Shown here: positions 252-60,638 of the stretch, one piece after another
Layout: every line of letters begins with the position of its first letter
How positions within the stretch are numbered: the first letter of the stretch is position 1
From: Pseudanabaena sp. lw0831
GTDB taxonomy: Bacteria > Cyanobacteriota > Cyanobacteriia > Pseudanabaenales > Pseudanabaenaceae
Length of the DNA: 64,000 bases
Reading direction: 5' to 3'
NCBI RefSeq assembly: GCF_016584665.1
Contig: NZ_BBJB01000021.1
Coordinates: 1 to 64,000 of the forward strand
The notes under the pieces: generated by a model
The model's input: only the letters and a program-made list of their open reading frames with translations
Told to the model about the DNA's origin: nothing
Database searches by the model: none
Program-made: the position numbers and the translations under genes

Positions 252-3191
252 ATGTTCCAGAAAATCTCGGAAAAGCAGATGCATTACGTTCGATGGCTAC
301 TCGCGATCGGATGGCTAATTCTCATCTTTTCGATGTTTTATGACCCCATCTCCTACCATTTGACCGATCCCAACGATCCAAATATGTTATTTAGTCCATT
401 TCGGATCAAAAAAGAGTTGGGATGCGTGCAATTTCAGGGTACTTGCGATAATCTCGAACCTTACGCTATGGGGGCAAGATTTTTTTGGGGCATAATTGTC
501 CCGCTTATTATTTGTATAGTTTTAGTATTCGGACATGAGGCATGGAGGCGGATCTGTCCGTTAATGTTTATTACACAAATTCCTAGAGCCTTAGGATGGC
601 AACGCCGTCGTCGTGTTGTTGATCCGCTAACTAATACTGTCCGCTCCGAACCTGTAACGATCGCTAAAAATTCATGGCTGGGGCGCAATTCTCTATATGT
701 GCAGTTTGGGCTGTTATTTCTTGGCTTGAATGTGCGCTTACTATTCGTTAACTCCGATCGCCTTGCCCTCGGCATCTTTTTGTGTCTGACCATCCTAGCG
801 GCTTTGACTATAGGATTTCTCTATGGCGGCAAATCTTGGTGTCATTATTTTTGTCCGATGGCTCCAGTCCAAGTAATATACACGGGACCGCGCGGCTTAC
901 TGGCAAGCGAAGCTCACCAAAATCAAGAATCTGGGATTACCCAATCGATGTGTCGCACTGTCGATCAAGTAGGCAAAGAAAAAAGTGCCTGTGTAAGCTG
1001 CCAGTCACCTTGCTTTGATATTGATGCCGAGCGATCCTATTGGGATGGCATCAATCGTAGCGATCGCAAATTGCTCTATTATGGCTATCTCGGCTTAGTG
1101 ATTGGGTTTTACGCTTACTTCACTTTATATTCTGGCAATCCCAACTTCTTAGCTGGCGGCGTATGGGACGAAACCAATCAATTTGCCATGCTTTTTCAGC
1201 CAGGTTTTTATATCTCAGGGCAGGCAATTCCCATACCCAAAATTTTTGCAGTTCCTTTAACCTTGACGACTTCAACCCTAATTACCTATGTAATTGGAAG
1301 ACGATTAGAACGCGCTTACAAACGTTATAGCAAGTACCGCAACCTTGTCTTAACTGCCTCTCAAATCCAACACCGCGCCTTTACACTATGCGCGTTTATT
1401 TCCTTTAATCTGCTGTTTTGGATGGGAGTAAACCCCACATTAGGCTGGCTACCAGCCTTTGAACAACAGTTTATTGGCTGGATGGCTGTGATTGCTTCGA
1501 CCATGTGGTTTTATAGAACCTTTGGGCGCACTTCGCAGATGTATGCTCGCGAGAGTTTGGCTACAAGTTTACGCCGCCAACTCAGCAAGTTAGCCTTTGA
1601 TTTTTCTAAAGTTTTAGAAGGGCGATCGCTTAAAGATCTTAAACCAGATGAAGTCTATGTCTTGGCGAAAACCCTACCCGAACTCACCCATGAAAAACGG
1701 GTACAAATGTATAAAGATGTCCTCAAAGAGTCTCTGAGTGCAGGCAATATGAATTCCTCCAGCAGGCTGGAAGTATTCGACCTAATGCGACAGCAGTTAG
1801 ATATTAATGAGGAAGAGCACAATCAGATTCTTGGAGATATGGGAATTAACGATGCTCAAATGCTCAGTACTTCCAGACAAATTATCCAAGAAAATGAATC
1901 TCGACTGGGTAAGTATCGCCGCTCCTTAGAACTGATGTTGCGAGAGTTCGTTGAGAGTAATTTACCTTTAAACAAATTGATGCAACTTAAAGAGGAACAA
2001 ATTTTAGTTTTTCGGCAAGAATATACTGTCACGGTGCAAGAAGAGACGGCAATTTTAGCTAGTATTTGTGAGCAAGGAAGTCTTTTAGACTCAATTGCAA
2101 AAGATGCCTATCAAAAGCTTAAGACGCTCGCTCGCTACGCGCATATTCTGCAAAGAGCACCTAATTTACCAACAGATGTAATTAGTTTGCTGGTTTTCAA
2201 ATTTCAACAACAGCAGCGATCGCTAGTCATTAAGCTCCTACGTATTCTCGAAATTTTCGGTGATGCGCCTGAAGCCTATAAAATTGCTAACGATCTCGCA
2301 TCTCTTACCCATAAAGGTCTAGCAGCAAATATTTTGCTCGATTTACTCCAAGACGAAACTGAGAATCCCCCTTGGCACGATCGACTACCGCCTAAAGCGA
2401 TCAAAATTTTTAACTCGATCAAGGCTCTTACGGAATTTCACTTACCTCCAATAAGTAGAGAATCAGTCTTTACTGTATTAGTTCAATTAATGGAAGATCC
2501 TGATACTTTAGTGAAAGCGGGTAGTCTGTATGCTTTAAAGCAAATTGATATACTGAAAGCGACAGAAGAAGCCCAGCATATTTTGAGAGATCCCCATTCT
2601 CATGCATTGTTATCTGAAGAAGCAAAAACCTTTGTTACTATTAGACAACCTGCTTCTAAAAGTAAATCACAAAATATATCCAACAAAATATCAAGCGATA
2701 ACTTAGCAACCAATTTATTAAGCTCTGAGGATAATCAAGTTCTCGATACCTTTGACAAGCTATTGCTATTATTCCGTAACAGTCTATTTCGTCCTCTCCA
2801 AACCGATGCCCTTGCAGAAATAGCGAGACAATCAGAGATCAGGATTTATAACACTGGTGATGCGATCTATCAAACGGGCGATTTACCTAAGACAATCTGG
2901 GCGATAGTCGATGGTTCCATCGAGATTCGTTCTACGGGTGGCGATCGCCGTCAGTTCTTCAAAAAAATTACGTCCAATCAAACGATTGGACAATTGGAAG
3001 TACTAACCCAAACTCCCTTTGCAAATTTAGCGATCGCCACATCACCCCATACCTTGCTCTTAGTGATTAATGCCAAAGTGTTTATGCAAGCACTAAGTGA
3101 AGATCCACTATATACAAAACATTTACTAATTTCTGTCAGTACTTCCCTCCAAAGTATGCTTTCGTCACAAATGTCTGTAAATCGACAATAA
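252..3191 (+). CDS. Membrane Fe-S (polyferredoxin/NosR-NapH-like) protein with C-terminal cyclic-nucleotide-binding domain
   Basis: Predicted inner-membrane redox protein of 979 residues. The N-terminal ~430 residues hold about eight hydrophobic segments and two cysteine groups: a CHYFCP motif near residue 197 and a C-x12-C-x2-C-x3-C cluster near 234-254, as in NapH/NosR/CcoG-type 4Fe-4S membrane proteins. Residues ~450-820 are soluble and helical, HEAT-like in the last third. Residues ~840-970 form a cyclic-nucleotide-binding-type beta roll (IYNTGDAIYQTGD, then GQLEVL). The ATG at 252 is chosen because AGGAG lies at 238-242; an in-frame TTG at 234 has no ribosome-binding site. The FHA-reductase-ferredoxin gene follows 111 bp downstream on the same strand. 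I infer that the protein passes electrons across or along the membrane under control of a small ligand. Its partner and substrate are unknown. Confidence 0.75.
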   Translation: MFQKISEKQMHYVRWLLAIGWLILIFSMFYDPISYHLTDPNDPNMLFSPFRIKKELGCVQFQGTCDNLEPYAMGARFFWGIIVPLIICIVLVFGHEAWRRICPLMFITQIPRALGWQRRRRVVDPLTNTVRSEPVTIAKNSWLGRNSLYVQFGLLFLGLNVRLLFVNSDRLALGIFLCLTILAALTIGFLYGGKSWCHYFCPMAPVQVIYTGPRGLLASEAHQNQESGITQSMCRTVDQVGKEKSACVSCQSPCFDIDAERSYWDGINRSDRKLLYYGYLGLVIGFYAYFTLYSGNPNFLAGGVWDETNQFAMLFQPGFYISGQAIPIPKIFAVPLTLTTSTLITYVIGRRLERAYKRYSKYRNLVLTASQIQHRAFTLCAFISFNLLFWMGVNPTLGWLPAFEQQFIGWMAVIASTMWFYRTFGRTSQMYARESLATSLRRQLSKLAFDFSKVLEGRSLKDLKPDEVYVLAKTLPELTHEKRVQMYKDVLKESLSAGNMNSSSRLEVFDLMRQQLDINEEEHNQILGDMGINDAQMLSTSRQIIQENESRLGKYRRSLELMLREFVESNLPLNKLMQLKEEQILVFRQEYTVTVQEETAILASICEQGSLLDSIAKDAYQKLKTLARYAHILQRAPNLPTDVISLLVFKFQQQQRSLVIKLLRILEIFGDAPEAYKIANDLASLTHKGLAANILLDLLQDETENPPWHDRLPPKAIKIFNSIKALTEFHLPPISRESVFTVLVQLMEDPDTLVKAGSLYALKQIDILKATEEAQHILRDPHSHALLSEEAKTFVTIRQPASKSKSQNISNKISSDNLATNLLSSEDNQVLDTFDKLLLLFRNSLFRPLQTDALAEIARQSEIRIYNTGDAIYQTGDLPKTIWAIVDGSIEIRSTGGDRRQFFKKITSNQTIGQLEVLTQTPFANLAIATSPHTLLLVINAKVFMQALSEDPLYTKHLLISVSTSLQSMLSSQMSVNRQ

Positions 3192-56202: not shown

Positions 56203-57621
56203 TTGAATCAAGATTTTTCTCCATTATTAGAAGCGGCGCGGCGATATTTAGATATCGATGACGCACCGTTTTATATGCCAGGACATAAACGCGGTCAGGG
56301 TATTGATCGCGAATTTATGTCAATCATGGGTGAGAATATTTTTCGCCTCGATTTGCCTGAATTACCCGATCTCGAAGAACCGATCGCTGAAGCCGAAGTT
56401 CTAGCTGCCGATGCTTATGGCAGCGATCGCGCATGGTTCTTGACCAATGGCTCTACCTGCGGTGTGCAAGCGATGCTATTGGCAACTTGCCAGCAGGAAG
56501 ACAAGATTTTAATTGGGCGTAACTGTCATAAAGCCACGATCGCAGGACTAGTTATTAATGGAGCTACTCCTGTTTATTTGCCAACTGACTATTTACCAGA
56601 ATTTGATTTAGACTTGGGCGTGAGTCCTAAGACCTTAGAATTATTTCTGAACCTGCATCCTGATGCGAAAGCGGTAATGCTAGTTAGCCCTAATTATTTT
56701 GGAGTTTGTGGCGAACTGGCAAAAATGGTAGCGATCGCCCATTCTTTTAATGTTCCCCTATTAGTTGATGCTGCTCACGGAGCGCACCAAGGATTTCATC
56801 CCGATCTACCGATTTCAGCTCTGCAAGCAGGAGCCGACTTAGTTGTGCAATCCACTCACAAAGTTGCAGGTAGCCTCACCCAGTCTTCGATTTTGCATTT
56901 ACAAGGCGATCGCATTGCTGTTGAACAAGTTGATCGTGCTTTGCAAATATTGCGATCAAGTAGTCCCAATTTATTACTAATGATTTCTCTGGATGTGGCG
57001 CGGCGACAAATGGCAGTTAATGGCAAACAACTCTTAACTTACACATTGGGATTAGCTAAAGCAGCGCGATCGCAATTAAATCAAATTCCTAAGTTGCGAA
57101 CCTTTAGTCAGGTAGAAGTTCCCAATCTTGACGATACTCGCCTCACGGTAATGACTGATTGCTTAGATATTACAGGCTTTGAAGCTGATGAATATTTGCA
57201 TTCTCAATTAGACGTGATGGCAGAAATGCCCACCAGATCGCAATTAGTATTTAGTCTCAGCTTTGGTAATACTCAAGCTGATATTGATCGGCTAGTGAGT
57301 GGATTGCAACAACTTTCTCAGGAAACCAATGATTGTTGGTCGGCGACTGCCGACCAACAATCATTGGTTTCCATTCCAAAATCTAGACTTACTCCTCGTG
57401 AGGCATATTTTGCAAAATGCGATCGCATTTCTATCGATAACGCGATCGGGAGAATTAGTGCTGAATCTCTTTGTCCTTATCCTCCAGGGATTCCTCTAGT
57501 TTGTATTGGTGAAGAAATCACGTTTGAGGTCGTGGAAATGTTGCAAGCTATTTTGCGATCGGGCGGTGTTATTAATGGGGCAAGTGATGACAGCCTCAAA
57601 ACAATTTTAGTTGTACAGTAA
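56203..57621 (+). CDS. PLP-dependent Orn/Lys/Arg decarboxylase family protein
   Basis: A 472-residue protein with a TTG start; the family begins just before FYMPGHKRGQG, which supports it. Fold-type I motifs are WFLTNGSTCGVQAMLLA, VDAAHGAHQGFHPDLPISAL and the PLP lysine in QSTHKVAGSLTQSS. The C-terminal domain has SRLTPREAYFAKCDRIS and SAESLCPYPPGIPLV. It decarboxylates a basic amino acid in polyamine synthesis; arginine, lysine or ornithine cannot be told apart here. Codons ~373-390 are made of a 24-bp palindrome. Confidence 0.85.
   Translation: MNQDFSPLLEAARRYLDIDDAPFYMPGHKRGQGIDREFMSIMGENIFRLDLPELPDLEEPIAEAEVLAADAYGSDRAWFLTNGSTCGVQAMLLATCQQEDKILIGRNCHKATIAGLVINGATPVYLPTDYLPEFDLDLGVSPKTLELFLNLHPDAKAVMLVSPNYFGVCGELAKMVAIAHSFNVPLLVDAAHGAHQGFHPDLPISALQAGADLVVQSTHKVAGSLTQSSILHLQGDRIAVEQVDRALQILRSSSPNLLLMISLDVARRQMAVNGKQLLTYTLGLAKAARSQLNQIPKLRTFSQVEVPNLDDTRLTVMTDCLDITGFEADEYLHSQLDVMAEMPTRSQLVFSLSFGNTQADIDRLVSGLQQLSQETNDCWSATADQQSLVSIPKSRLTPREAYFAKCDRISIDNAIGRISAESLCPYPPGIPLVCIGEEITFEVVEMLQAILRSGGVINGASDDSLKTILVVQ
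57321..57372. repeat. 24-bp perfect palindrome inside the decarboxylase gene
   Basis: Arms 57321-57344 and 57349-57372, loop GACT. It is translated as ETNDCWSATADQQSLVS in a variable linker between the main and C-terminal domains. Confidence 0.85.
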
Positions 57622-57629
57622 TGCAACTT

Positions 57630-57681
57630 AACCAAAAAAGAGAAAGGTGGCGCTTTGCGCCGCCTTTCTCTTTTTTTGGTT
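57630..57681. terminator. Terminator after the decarboxylase
   Basis: ~24-bp stem with one wobble and one bulge (57630-57653 with 57657-57681), GGTGGCGC-TTT-GCGCCGCC centre. Confidence 0.75.
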
Positions 57682-57703
57682 TATGTCCTACAATGATGAG
57701 ACT

Positions 57704-57827
57704 ATCGATCGGTTCCAACGGGTAACAGCCTTTGGAGGAAACGGGGAAAGTTTGGTGTAAACCCAGCGCTGTCCCGCAACTGTGATGAGATGCATCAATC
57801 TCTAAGTCAGGATGCCCGCCGATCGCA
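57704..57827 (+). promoter_or_regulatory. Cobalamin (B12) riboswitch
   Basis: Aptamer hallmarks occur in order: GGTTCC, GGGAAAGTTTGGTG with TAAACCC, the B12 box GCTGTCCCGCAACTGTGATG and AGTCAGGATGCCCGCC. A P1 stem CGATCGG (57706-57712) pairs with CCGATCG (57819-57825). An expression platform is plausible: ATCAATCTCTA in the aptamer (57794-57804) can pair in 10 of 11 positions with TAGAGATTCAT downstream (57840-57850). It would sense adenosyl- or another cobalamin and control the genes that follow. Confidence 0.9.
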
Positions 57828-57881
57828 AATGGTCTCTTTTAGAGATTCATCAACCTACACTTTTTCATCTGCGAGGTATAG

Positions 57882-57998
57882 ATGATGTTTAGTTTAAAAT
57901 TTTTAGAAATTTTACAATTGCTCCCGATTGGACAAAAACTGCCCCAAGGCGATCGCATCAAGCAGACAAATAGGAAGTCCAATGCTGCGAGATCATAA
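57882..57998 (+). CDS. Small ORF directly downstream of the B12 riboswitch
   Basis: A GAGG at 57873-57876 precedes tandem ATGs (57882, 57885). The frame encodes 37-38 residues, starting MFSLKFLEILQLLPIGQKL, with an amphipathic first half and a basic tail. It overlaps the next gene's start by 17 bp. It could be a real microprotein or a leader ORF for coupling. No family is recognised. Confidence 0.45.
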   Translation: MMFSLKFLEILQLLPIGQKLPQGDRIKQTNRKSNAARS

Positions 57999-58449
57999 AG
58001 AACGTCAGGACATCTGCCATTCTTGGCAACCTCAGTTTATTAAAGATAATTTTTTACTAATTGGATATCATGCCCTGAGGGGTGTTGTAACATCAGGGAA
58101 AGGGATTACAGTTTGTATTGTCGGGCAACCTGCTGCTGATTTTAAGCCGAGTTTTCACCTTTGGCAATTTAGAACTCAGTTTATAGCAGCGGAATTTGCT
58201 GCACCCTATTTACTGGAAATGGGTATCGGTTCAAGACAGATTCCGTCATTAATGCAGGCGATCGCCAACTATGATGCTCAACAAGAGATCATTCTGGCAA
58301 TGAATATCGATCAACAGATCGAAATTTACTGTCTCCAAAACCTGAAGATTTCTCCCTCAGAATGCTACAAACAAGTATGCGATCGCTGGGATGAATTCAT
58401 GCCACACGGGTTCCCGCCCGAATCATCACATCGTTTTATTAGAATCTAG
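57982..58449 (+). CDS. Unknown protein under a B12 riboswitch
   Basis: ATG 57982, preceded by AGGAAG, gives 155 residues. It is soluble, with a beta/alpha-like start (DNFLLIGYHALRGVVTSGKG, then ITVCIVGQPAADF), then helices and a Cys/His-containing tail (ECYKQVCDRWDEFMPHGF). I recognise no domain, and it is not a known cobalamin biosynthesis enzyme, transporter or MetE. The riboswitch argues for B12-linked regulation. The frame upstream of 57982 overlaps the small ORF and is unlikely to be coding. Confidence 0.65.
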   Translation: MLRDHKERQDICHSWQPQFIKDNFLLIGYHALRGVVTSGKGITVCIVGQPAADFKPSFHLWQFRTQFIAAEFAAPYLLEMGIGSRQIPSLMQAIANYDAQQEIILAMNIDQQIEIYCLQNLKISPSECYKQVCDRWDEFMPHGFPPESSHRFIRI

Positions 58450-58480
58450 GATGGGCGGCGCAACGCACCACCCATCCTAG
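58447..58480. terminator. Hairpin after the riboswitch-controlled gene
   Basis: 13-bp stem with one wobble (58447-58459 with 58468-58480), loop CGCAACGCA, overlapping the stop codon. Confidence 0.6.
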
Positions 58481-58518
58481 CCATACTGCTAGAGTTATTT
58501 ACAAGAGTATTTTATTGA

Positions 58519-59685
58519 GTGGAAAATATAATTAAAAAATCAGACTTTGTTCTCACTCCTTACATGAAGAGCAACGATCTCTTGGCAACTTATCAAATCC
58601 TGAATACCGTTGTTCCCTATATAGTTTTATGGTTTTTGGCAGTTAAAGCAGCAGCAGTTTCTCTTTGGTTTCTGCCTCCGATCATCATTTTGATGACTCT
58701 CTTTTCATTGCGATGCTTCTCGTTAATGCATGATTGCGGACATTATTCGCTCTTTACTTCCAAAAAAGTTAACAGAGTTGTTGGCTTCTTTTTGGGTGTG
58801 ATTAATGCCATACCCCAATATCCTTGGTCAAAAGGTCATGCCTACCACCACAAAACCAATGGTGATTGGGAACGATATCGTGGTGTCGCAGCATTCCTCT
58901 CTACTGAAGAATTTTCTAAGCTCAATGATTCCGATCAAAAGCTTTATGCCGTAATGAGACATCCATTAATGTCTTTCTTGGGAGGTTTTTTCTACCTTGC
59001 AATCAGACCAAGATATGCACTAATTGCAGGAAGCTATGATTTTATTGGTCATATATTTTCCAGTTTAAGGAAAGACCCTCGCATGGGTTTAGCGGCGATT
59101 ATCTCTTCTCACAAATCTAGAAATTGGTATACGGGAGCGGAATTTATAGATTTGCTGCTCAATAATATTTGCGTAATCGGCAGTTGGATTTTTCTCAGCC
59201 ATTTGCTTGGAGCAGGCTTCTTTTTCAGTGTTTACTCAATCAGTTTAACTTTTTCAGCAGCGATCTTTATCTGCGTGTTCTTTGTCCAGCATAACTTTGA
59301 AGACTCCTATGCCCACAAGACGGAAGGTTGGGACTATCTGCTTGGAGCGCTTGATGGTAGCAGTTATCTAGAGTTGCCAACAATTTTGAAGTGGTTTTCC
59401 GCAGATATCGGTTTTCATAATATCCATCACCTTTCGGAAAGAATCCCGAACTACAATCTCGAAGCTTGTCATAACGCAAATATTCATCTTCTCTCAAAGG
59501 TCAAAACGCTGAGGCTCGGAGATATGCTTGGCTGCGCCAAGTTTGTGTTATGGGATTCTGAGGCTTGTAAATTAATCTCGATCGCTGAGTTTCACAAGGC
59601 TAAATTTACAGCTCCAGATATAGAGCAAAGTCTTATTAATCAAAATAAGCTGGAAGACCTACTTGTCAAAAATGGTAAGGCTTAA
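58519..59685 (+). CDS. Membrane fatty-acid-desaturase family protein
   Basis: A 388-residue di-iron membrane enzyme with a GTG start. The three histidine boxes are intact: HDCGH (71-75), HAYHH (107-111) and HNIHH (~298). About four to six hydrophobic segments surround them, including FLAVKAAAVSLWFLPPIIIL. The family introduces double bonds or hydroxyls into acyl chains or carotenoids; the substrate is not clear. It ends five bases before the quinol methyltransferase, so the two are co-transcribed. Confidence 0.85.
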   Translation: MENIIKKSDFVLTPYMKSNDLLATYQILNTVVPYIVLWFLAVKAAAVSLWFLPPIIILMTLFSLRCFSLMHDCGHYSLFTSKKVNRVVGFFLGVINAIPQYPWSKGHAYHHKTNGDWERYRGVAAFLSTEEFSKLNDSDQKLYAVMRHPLMSFLGGFFYLAIRPRYALIAGSYDFIGHIFSSLRKDPRMGLAAIISSHKSRNWYTGAEFIDLLLNNICVIGSWIFLSHLLGAGFFFSVYSISLTFSAAIFICVFFVQHNFEDSYAHKTEGWDYLLGALDGSSYLELPTILKWFSADIGFHNIHHLSERIPNYNLEACHNANIHLLSKVKTLRLGDMLGCAKFVLWDSEACKLISIAEFHKAKFTAPDIEQSLINQNKLEDLLVKNGKA

Positions 59686-59690
59686 TCTTA

Positions 59691-60638
59691 ATGAATTTAT
59701 TTGTTACTACGTTGGAAGCTGTCTTGGCAGTTGCGATCGCAGGAATTGGCGTTTATCTAGCTACAGCACGTCGCTATCAATCTACTGATTCTGTTGCTAA
59801 CTCCTATGATCAATGGACAGAAGATGGAATTTTAGAGTTCTACTGGGGCGAACATATTCATCTAGGTCATTACGGTTCGCCACCGCGTTCAAAAGACTTC
59901 TTGACCGCTAAATCTGATTTTGTTCATGAAATGGTGCGTTGGGGTGGCTTAGATAAGCTCCCTGCTGGAACGACTGTCCTTGATGTGGGCTGTGGTATTG
60001 GTGGCAGTAGCCGCATTTTGGCAAAAGAATATGGCTTCTCGGTAACAGCAATTACGATTAGTCCTGAGCAGGTCAAACGTGCTCAGGAGTTAACCCCAAA
60101 GGAGCTTGACCTAAAATTTCAGGTTGATGATGCGATGGCGATGTCATTTCCTGATGCAAGCTTTGATGTGGTTTGGTCGGTCGAAGCGGGGCCACATATG
60201 CCCGACAAAGCTATTTTTGCAAAAGAGTTGATGCGCGTACTCAAGCCCAATGGTTTGCTGGTACTTGCGGATTGGAATCAGCGAGACGATCGCCAAGTGC
60301 CTCTAAACATTTGGGAGAAGCCTGTGATGAAGCAACTCCTCGATCAATGGTCACATCCTGAGTTCTCAAGCATTGAAGGCTTTTCTGAGCTTTTGGAGGC
60401 GACAGGACTGGTCGATGGCAAGGTAACAACTTCTGATTGGACAGCAGAAACTCTTCCTTCATGGCTAGATTCAATCTGGCAAGGTGTAGCGCGACCAAAG
60501 GGATTGGTGAGTTTTGGGATATCTGGATTTATTAAATCAGTAAGGGAAATACCAACGATTTTACTAATGCGTCTAGCCTTTGGAGTGGGGCTTTGTCGAT
60601 TTGGCATGTTTAAAGCAGTGCGATCGCCTGATATATAA
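59691..60638 (+). CDS. 2-methyl-6-phytyl-1,4-benzoquinol methyltransferase (Sll0418-like)
   Basis: A 315-residue SAM-dependent methyltransferase with an N-terminal membrane anchor. LDVGCGIGGSSRILAKEYGF is the SAM-binding loop. SVANSYDQWTEDGILEFYWG, HIHLGHYGSPP, SVEAGPHMPDKAIFAKEL and the C-terminal SVREIPTILLMRLAFGVGLC agree closely with Synechocystis Sll0418 as I remember it. That enzyme methylates the tocopherol and plastoquinone precursors MPBQ and MSBQ. It forms a two-gene operon with the desaturase. Confidence 0.9.
   Translation: MNLFVTTLEAVLAVAIAGIGVYLATARRYQSTDSVANSYDQWTEDGILEFYWGEHIHLGHYGSPPRSKDFLTAKSDFVHEMVRWGGLDKLPAGTTVLDVGCGIGGSSRILAKEYGFSVTAITISPEQVKRAQELTPKELDLKFQVDDAMAMSFPDASFDVVWSVEAGPHMPDKAIFAKELMRVLKPNGLLVLADWNQRDDRQVPLNIWEKPVMKQLLDQWSHPEFSSIEGFSELLEATGLVDGKVTTSDWTAETLPSWLDSIWQGVARPKGLVSFGISGFIKSVREIPTILLMRLAFGVGLCRFGMFKAVRSPDI

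Follow-up and report, generated by a model that had tools for sequence, protein, structure and literature searches.

Organisation of the locus

What does a cobalamin riboswitch control when the genes behind it belong to no named family? The question is raised by a 64,000-nt stretch of the Pseudanabaena sp. lw0831 genome (contig NZ_BBJB01000021.1; hereafter the window), in which such a riboswitch precedes a 38-codon ORF and a gene for a 155-aa protein. The locus comprises the following features.

56203-57618, + strand: Orn/Lys/Arg decarboxylase gene (lysine/ornithine-type; Pfam OKR_DC_1)
57634-57676, + strand: intrinsic terminator of this decarboxylase gene, a 20-pair stem with a T tail, just 5' of the riboswitch
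57693-57837, + strand: cobalamin riboswitch aptamer (RF00174, 60.7 bits, E 1.4e-12, complete model)
57866-57884, + strand: expression-platform hairpin CATCT-GCGAGGTAT-AGATG, with the Shine-Dalgarno (SD) sequence in the loop and the start codon in the 3' strand (from five-genome invariance and RNA folding)
57873-57876, + strand: SD GAGG of the 38-codon ORF, in the hairpin loop, 5 nt before the AUG
57882-57998, + strand: 38-codon leader ORF (uORF) MMFSLKFLEILQLLPIGQKLPQGDRIKQTNRKSNAARS, open in five of five genomes and free of indels
57972-57977, + strand: AGGAAG within the uORF, read from the sequence as the 155-aa gene's own SD (AGGRAG in five genomes)
57982-58449, + strand: gene for the 155-aa CcmS-like protein, group A of its family (from homologues, AlphaFold2, Foldseek, VIA and hhalign)
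58519-59685, + strand: gene for a fatty-acid-desaturase-like membrane enzyme (Pfam FA_desaturase, 4.5e-22), probable third gene of the operon
59691-60638, + strand: gene for a SAM-dependent methyltransferase (Pfam Methyltransf_11, 1.5e-23), probable fourth gene of the operon

The complete B12 aptamer, the well-placed ribosome-binding site (RBS) and the two ORFs with a 17-nt overlap described in the initial annotation are all present, and five genomes of the genus share the overlap. The desaturase gene directly follows the family gene at five of five orthologous loci of the genus and in metE operons of other families. The methyltransferase gene comes next at four of the five and in several metE operons. 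Both genes are probably on the same transcript as the 155-aa gene. A long inverted repeat without a T tail, TAGGATGGG..CCCATCCTA (58446-58481), lies immediately 3' of the 155-aa gene and is possibly a mobile palindrome or a processing site. The same genome carries a second cobalamin riboswitch, 5' of a classical cobalt/B12 set of hupE/ureJ-like, cobW-like and cobG-like genes (named by inspecting their translations).

The riboswitch appears to act on translation

With the RF00174 covariance model the aptamer scores 60.7 bits (gathering threshold 31.5), and the match spans the full model (1-189) and includes the B12 box. A near-identical aptamer occurs in four other genomes of the genus, where the RBS hairpin and both ORFs are also kept, so the arrangement is more than chance. 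The antiterminator pairing proposed in the initial annotation found no support, as a terminator scan detected neither a + strand terminator-like site nor an antiterminator between the aptamer and the ORFs. The strong + strand terminator at 57634-57676 lies 5' of the aptamer and none lies 3' of it, so the expression platform looks translational.

Behind the aptamer, CATCTGCGAGGTATAGATGATG places the SD in a loop and the start codon in the 3' strand, and is invariant in the five genus genomes. It folds as drawn in RNA fold predictions, not significantly better than shuffled sequences. A hairpin of the form CATCTGCGAGGTA..GATG / CATCTGCGAGGTAcgGATGATG, with SD and AUG in the same positions, is nearly invariant behind cyanobacterial cobalamin aptamers: the strict pattern follows 68 of 95 B12 boxes, and a variant follows nearly all others. 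Its AUG can be the start codon of hupE, DUF1636, cobW or the family gene itself, and at other loci that of a short leader ORF. These leader ORFs are of an "MM.." type, with the hairpin seen at loci L083, L094, L210 and others. We looked for L5-L13 covariation as a sign that L5 forms a kissing loop with the RBS hairpin and found none. The anatomy of the locus suggests that the riboswitch shuts off translation and that a uORF is coupled to it. Together with the established behaviour of this riboswitch class, this makes regulation by B12 through a translational switch likely.

The 38-codon ORF as a probable leader

The initial annotation placed two genes under riboswitch control. The peptide of the 38-codon ORF shows no purifying selection across the five genus genomes (pN/pS 0.55-1.9), and the ORF is therefore more likely a leader controlled by the riboswitch than another effector gene. 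An open frame with an unconstrained peptide would be expected if translation matters and its product does not.

With plentiful cobalamin, the bound aptamer would hide the SD in the hairpin at 57866-57884 and the uORF would go untranslated. With scarce cobalamin, ribosomes would translate the 38 codons, terminate within the first codons of the 155-aa gene and re-initiate at that point, and the desaturase and methyltransferase genes would then follow.

Alternatively, the uORF may never be translated, with the 155-aa gene initiated only from its own SD and the hairpin acting via RNA stability or Rho access. The lack of purifying selection and the good spacing of AGGAAG before the 155-aa gene would fit this reading. 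We consider it unlikely, since all five genomes retain the open frame, the SD hairpin provides the start of real genes at other loci (hupE, DUF1636, cobW and the family gene), and shortened metE ORFs at related loci, described below, stay in frame up to the overlap. Translation of the uORF with re-initiation at the 155-aa gene is the reading we carry forward.

The family is linked to cobalamin riboswitches across cyanobacteria

Searches of Pfam, NCBIfam and PHROGs returned nothing credible for the 155-aa protein, and a match to s48_45 (E 0.03) was rejected as chance. Of 38 genomes in the order, 16 have homologues; for the class the count is 106 of 390, with members in Trichodesmium, Crocosphaera and Arthrospira. 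The related-locus scan used the group B alignment as its sole query. Some cyanobacteria carry more than one family copy in separate contexts on the same contig (L121, L124, L138, L134).

A cobalamin riboswitch lies close upstream at 17 of 17 other loci of the genus. More widely, a same-strand cobalamin riboswitch occurs within 4.5 kb upstream of at least 104 of 122 family genes (97 genomes), and at least 83 of the 97 genomes have a riboswitch-linked family gene. Multi-megabase genomes with two to five riboswitches each would yield well under one such linked gene by chance. A complete lack of association between homologues and B12 genes or riboswitches would have spoken against the initial annotation; what we find is the upstream linkage just given, against five of the 122 genes with a riboswitch downstream or on the opposite strand, among the matches listed. 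This linkage, together with the ties to metE and metH set out below, bears out the suggestion of a cobalamin-related or cobalamin-replaced function.

The protein resembles the carboxysome chaperone CcmS

An AlphaFold2 model of the 155-aa protein, made with 40 homologues, reached a pLDDT of 84 and a pTM of 0.77. Foldseek returned two PDB chains below E 0.001, both of them CcmS (Slr1911, NF049993), a beta-carboxysome assembly chaperone (E 4.3e-5). VIA gave Z scores of 9.6 and 9.4 against CcmS over 117 residues, the next best being 4.8. In hhalign, a mixed alignment of the family matched CcmS with E 1.5e-8 (probability 95.5) and group B alone with E 5.9e-9, while unrelated controls gave E 0.12 and 0.26; the CcmS-like fold of group B is putative and derives from this profile comparison. 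The family proteins have a nearly invariant cysteine in their C-terminal part that is common to CcmS. We consider the CcmS-like fold and homology of the family highly probable.

The family is nevertheless distinct from CcmS. Of 40 members, 11 match the CcmS model weakly (best E 1.8e-4), and the 155-aa protein has no match to NF049993 up to E 1, where the cut-off is 125 bits. In a quick tree built from few columns, CcmS and the family separate fully, with the window protein in group A. Scores below the CcmS cut-off and the separation in the tree mark a distant sister family, not CcmS itself. The chaperone CcmS forms a dimer and binds the C-terminal tail of CcmK1 (PMC11635287). In the hhalign alignment, a distant one read by hand, Phe58 of CcmS has a counterpart in the family, unlike Asp51 and Tyr60 of the CcmK1-tail site. 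As most CcmS contact residues are unmatched in this alignment, the CcmS binding mode is not transferable to the family, and its partner is probably a different one.

These results bear on the idea that the 155-aa protein is a low-B12 CcmS isoform that adjusts carboxysome shell assembly. The fold and profile would suit this role, and a genome search found no genuine CcmS in the window's order (53 of 390 genomes have one above the cut-off), so the protein could stand in for it. We regard the idea as very improbable: ten genomes carry both CcmS and the family, Asp51 and Tyr60 are unmatched in the distant alignment, and no carboxysome gene occurs among the annotated neighbours of the family gene in the window or in other genomes (in Nostoc 7120, CcmS lies near such genes). 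Our literature search found no paper on CcmS homologues or paralogues outside carboxysomes.

Methionine synthase genes are recurrent neighbours

MetE is the B12-independent methionine synthase. A recurrent upstream neighbour of the family gene is metE (Meth_synt_1 and Meth_synt_2), the 3' end of which overlaps the family gene, and metE operons often contain a second, diverged family copy in tandem (groups A and B). The family is a usual operon partner of metE, contrary to the initial view that the target is unlike MetE-type genes. Full-length metE is encoded in 36 of 390 genomes, and the family occurs in 22 of these 36 versus 84 of the 354 others (Fisher p 7e-6, a statistic that ignores phylogeny). 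In one such operon (L080 6180-8306, likewise L075), two genes lie between the two family genes: one encodes a 464-aa protein that partially matches the barrel domain of the B12-dependent ribonucleotide reductase NrdJ, and the other a 238-aa protein of no Pfam or NCBIfam family.

A strongly supported group B clade sits behind metH at 15 loci (gaps mostly 85-540 nt) in Crocosphaera, Okeania, Hydrocoleum, Symploca, Calothrix and Trichodesmium. No riboswitch was found in the three metH-linked loci searched. In the genus of the window, MetE is present in 0 of 26 genomes and MetH in 25 of 26. As nearly every cyanobacterial genome has MetH (73 of 75), its presence carries little weight and cannot discriminate. 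The order of the window, riboswitch-38-codon ORF-family gene-desaturase-methyltransferase, is that of metE operons in Phormidium LEGE 05292, Arthrospira PCC 9108 and others, with the uORF in metE's place.

Genes for a desaturase (F4, F7), a methyltransferase (F1), CMAS or DUF1636/CobW lie directly downstream in many family operons. The family could therefore be a CcmS-like chaperone for other low-B12 enzymes (desaturases, cyclopropane synthases, SAM methyltransferases), tied to methionine synthase by shared regulation only. The window, from a genus that lacks metE, suits this account, and its desaturase and methyltransferase could be the real clients. We find it doubtful, since the downstream genes differ between genomes while metE recurs directly upstream in distant families, and since a whole clade sits behind metH with no riboswitch in the three loci searched. 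Several B12-riboswitch operons (L107 1122-7829, also L086, L108 and L122) encode a desaturase, a SAM methyltransferase, a UbiH-type FAD hydroxylase, a second desaturase and a cyclopropane-fatty-acid synthase; these form an uncharacterised lipid- or quinone-modifying module that B12 probably controls.

The linkage to cobalamin riboswitches, metE, metH, DUF1636 and CobW genes would also be compatible with a regulator or cofactor handler, for example one that senses or delivers a corrinoid or metal for MetE/MetH, and the nearly invariant cysteine could serve such a protein. The same cysteine occurs in CcmS, however, the family has no known ligand- or metal-binding signature, and its sole clear fold match is a peptide-binding dimer. 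This role seems quite unlikely to us, and a chaperone for methionine synthase remains the preferred reading.

metE has shrunk repeatedly between the riboswitch and the family gene

At nine or more loci, spread over several families (some of them the same genome via two collections), a mini-metE lies between the riboswitch and the family gene:

L101 5718-6032: mini-metE
L078 5721-6041: mini-metE
L202 693-974: mini-metE
L201 805-1008: mini-metE
L162 531-692: mini-metE
L208 1192-1317: mini-metE
L205 610-735: mini-metE
L110 5441-5566: mini-metE
L124 about 1054-1240, minus strand: mini-metE

These ORFs of 106, 104, 93, 67, 58, 53 and 41 codons join the first MetE residues in frame to the last ones through internal deletions. 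Every one ends 17 nt inside the family gene, so that both ends of MetE are retained along with the overlap. The series of lengths indicates that metE was lost repeatedly while the riboswitch, the ribosome path and the family gene were kept. Retention of the family gene after metE loss implies that MetE is not its only client.

The mini-ORFs match the MetE profile. By eye, the similarity of the window uORF to the MetE ends does not go beyond what the overlap forces. Its sequence gives no evidence of a derivation from metE: the tail "NA" is forced by the overlapping start codon, and the 17-nt overlap is set in part by codons 5-6 of the family gene, where that frame meets a stop also at loci that have no uORF (L094). 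The window uORF may plausibly descend from metE.

A possible chaperone for methionine synthase under B12 limitation

Most family genes lie behind a B12 switch and many neighbour the gene of a methionine-producing enzyme, a pattern that hints at a specialised helper for living without B12. We propose that the 155-aa protein is a CcmS-fold, probably dimeric, chaperone or assembly factor dedicated to methionine synthase under B12 limitation. Its client would be MetE where present and MetH, perhaps in its cofactor-free form, in genomes without metE such as that of the window. For the whole model, from B12 switch through uORF coupling to chaperone, we judge the chances about even; the client itself, a guess from gene neighbourhood, falls slightly short of that. 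More tentative is the general scenario in which CcmS-fold chaperones for methionine synthase are widespread in cyanobacteria, are induced by B12 scarcity and have outlived metE, which repeatedly shrank to a leader peptide that only carries ribosomes to the chaperone gene.

The analysis provides a function lead for an unnamed family found in about a quarter of the sampled cyanobacterial genomes and places the CcmS fold in a setting other than carboxysomes. The results suggest that cells short of B12 produce a protein partner for methionine synthase. The locus type, in which a gene has dwindled to a short riboswitch-controlled leader beside a retained neighbour, is directly testable.

Comparison with known systems

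The family shares with CcmS the fold over 117 residues, a similar length, the profile match and the C-terminal region around the conserved cysteine. It differs in sequence (~13% identity), in the dimer and CcmK1-tail residues, which are mostly unmatched in a distant alignment, and in its B12-riboswitch, metE and metH contexts, which replace carboxysome clusters. Compared with riboswitch-controlled metE operons, the window has the B12 riboswitch and the same succession of family gene, desaturase and methyltransferase, but it lacks metE and has the 38-codon ORF there.

The regulatory arrangement is reminiscent of ppe2 in M. tuberculosis, where the SD of a uORF is masked by a B12 riboswitch and termination-reinitiation is the main route to expression of the overlapping gene (PMC11260477). 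Translation of the ppe2 uORF has been shown, and its riboswitch was proposed as a Class IIb variant with an AUGA overlap (PMC11260477). In both systems a cobalamin riboswitch is followed by a hairpin that holds the SD of a short uORF, and this uORF overlaps the next gene, which suggests termination-reinitiation. The window differs in that its aptamer fits the full RF00174 model, its overlap is 17 nt, its downstream gene is unrelated, and translation of its uORF is predicted.
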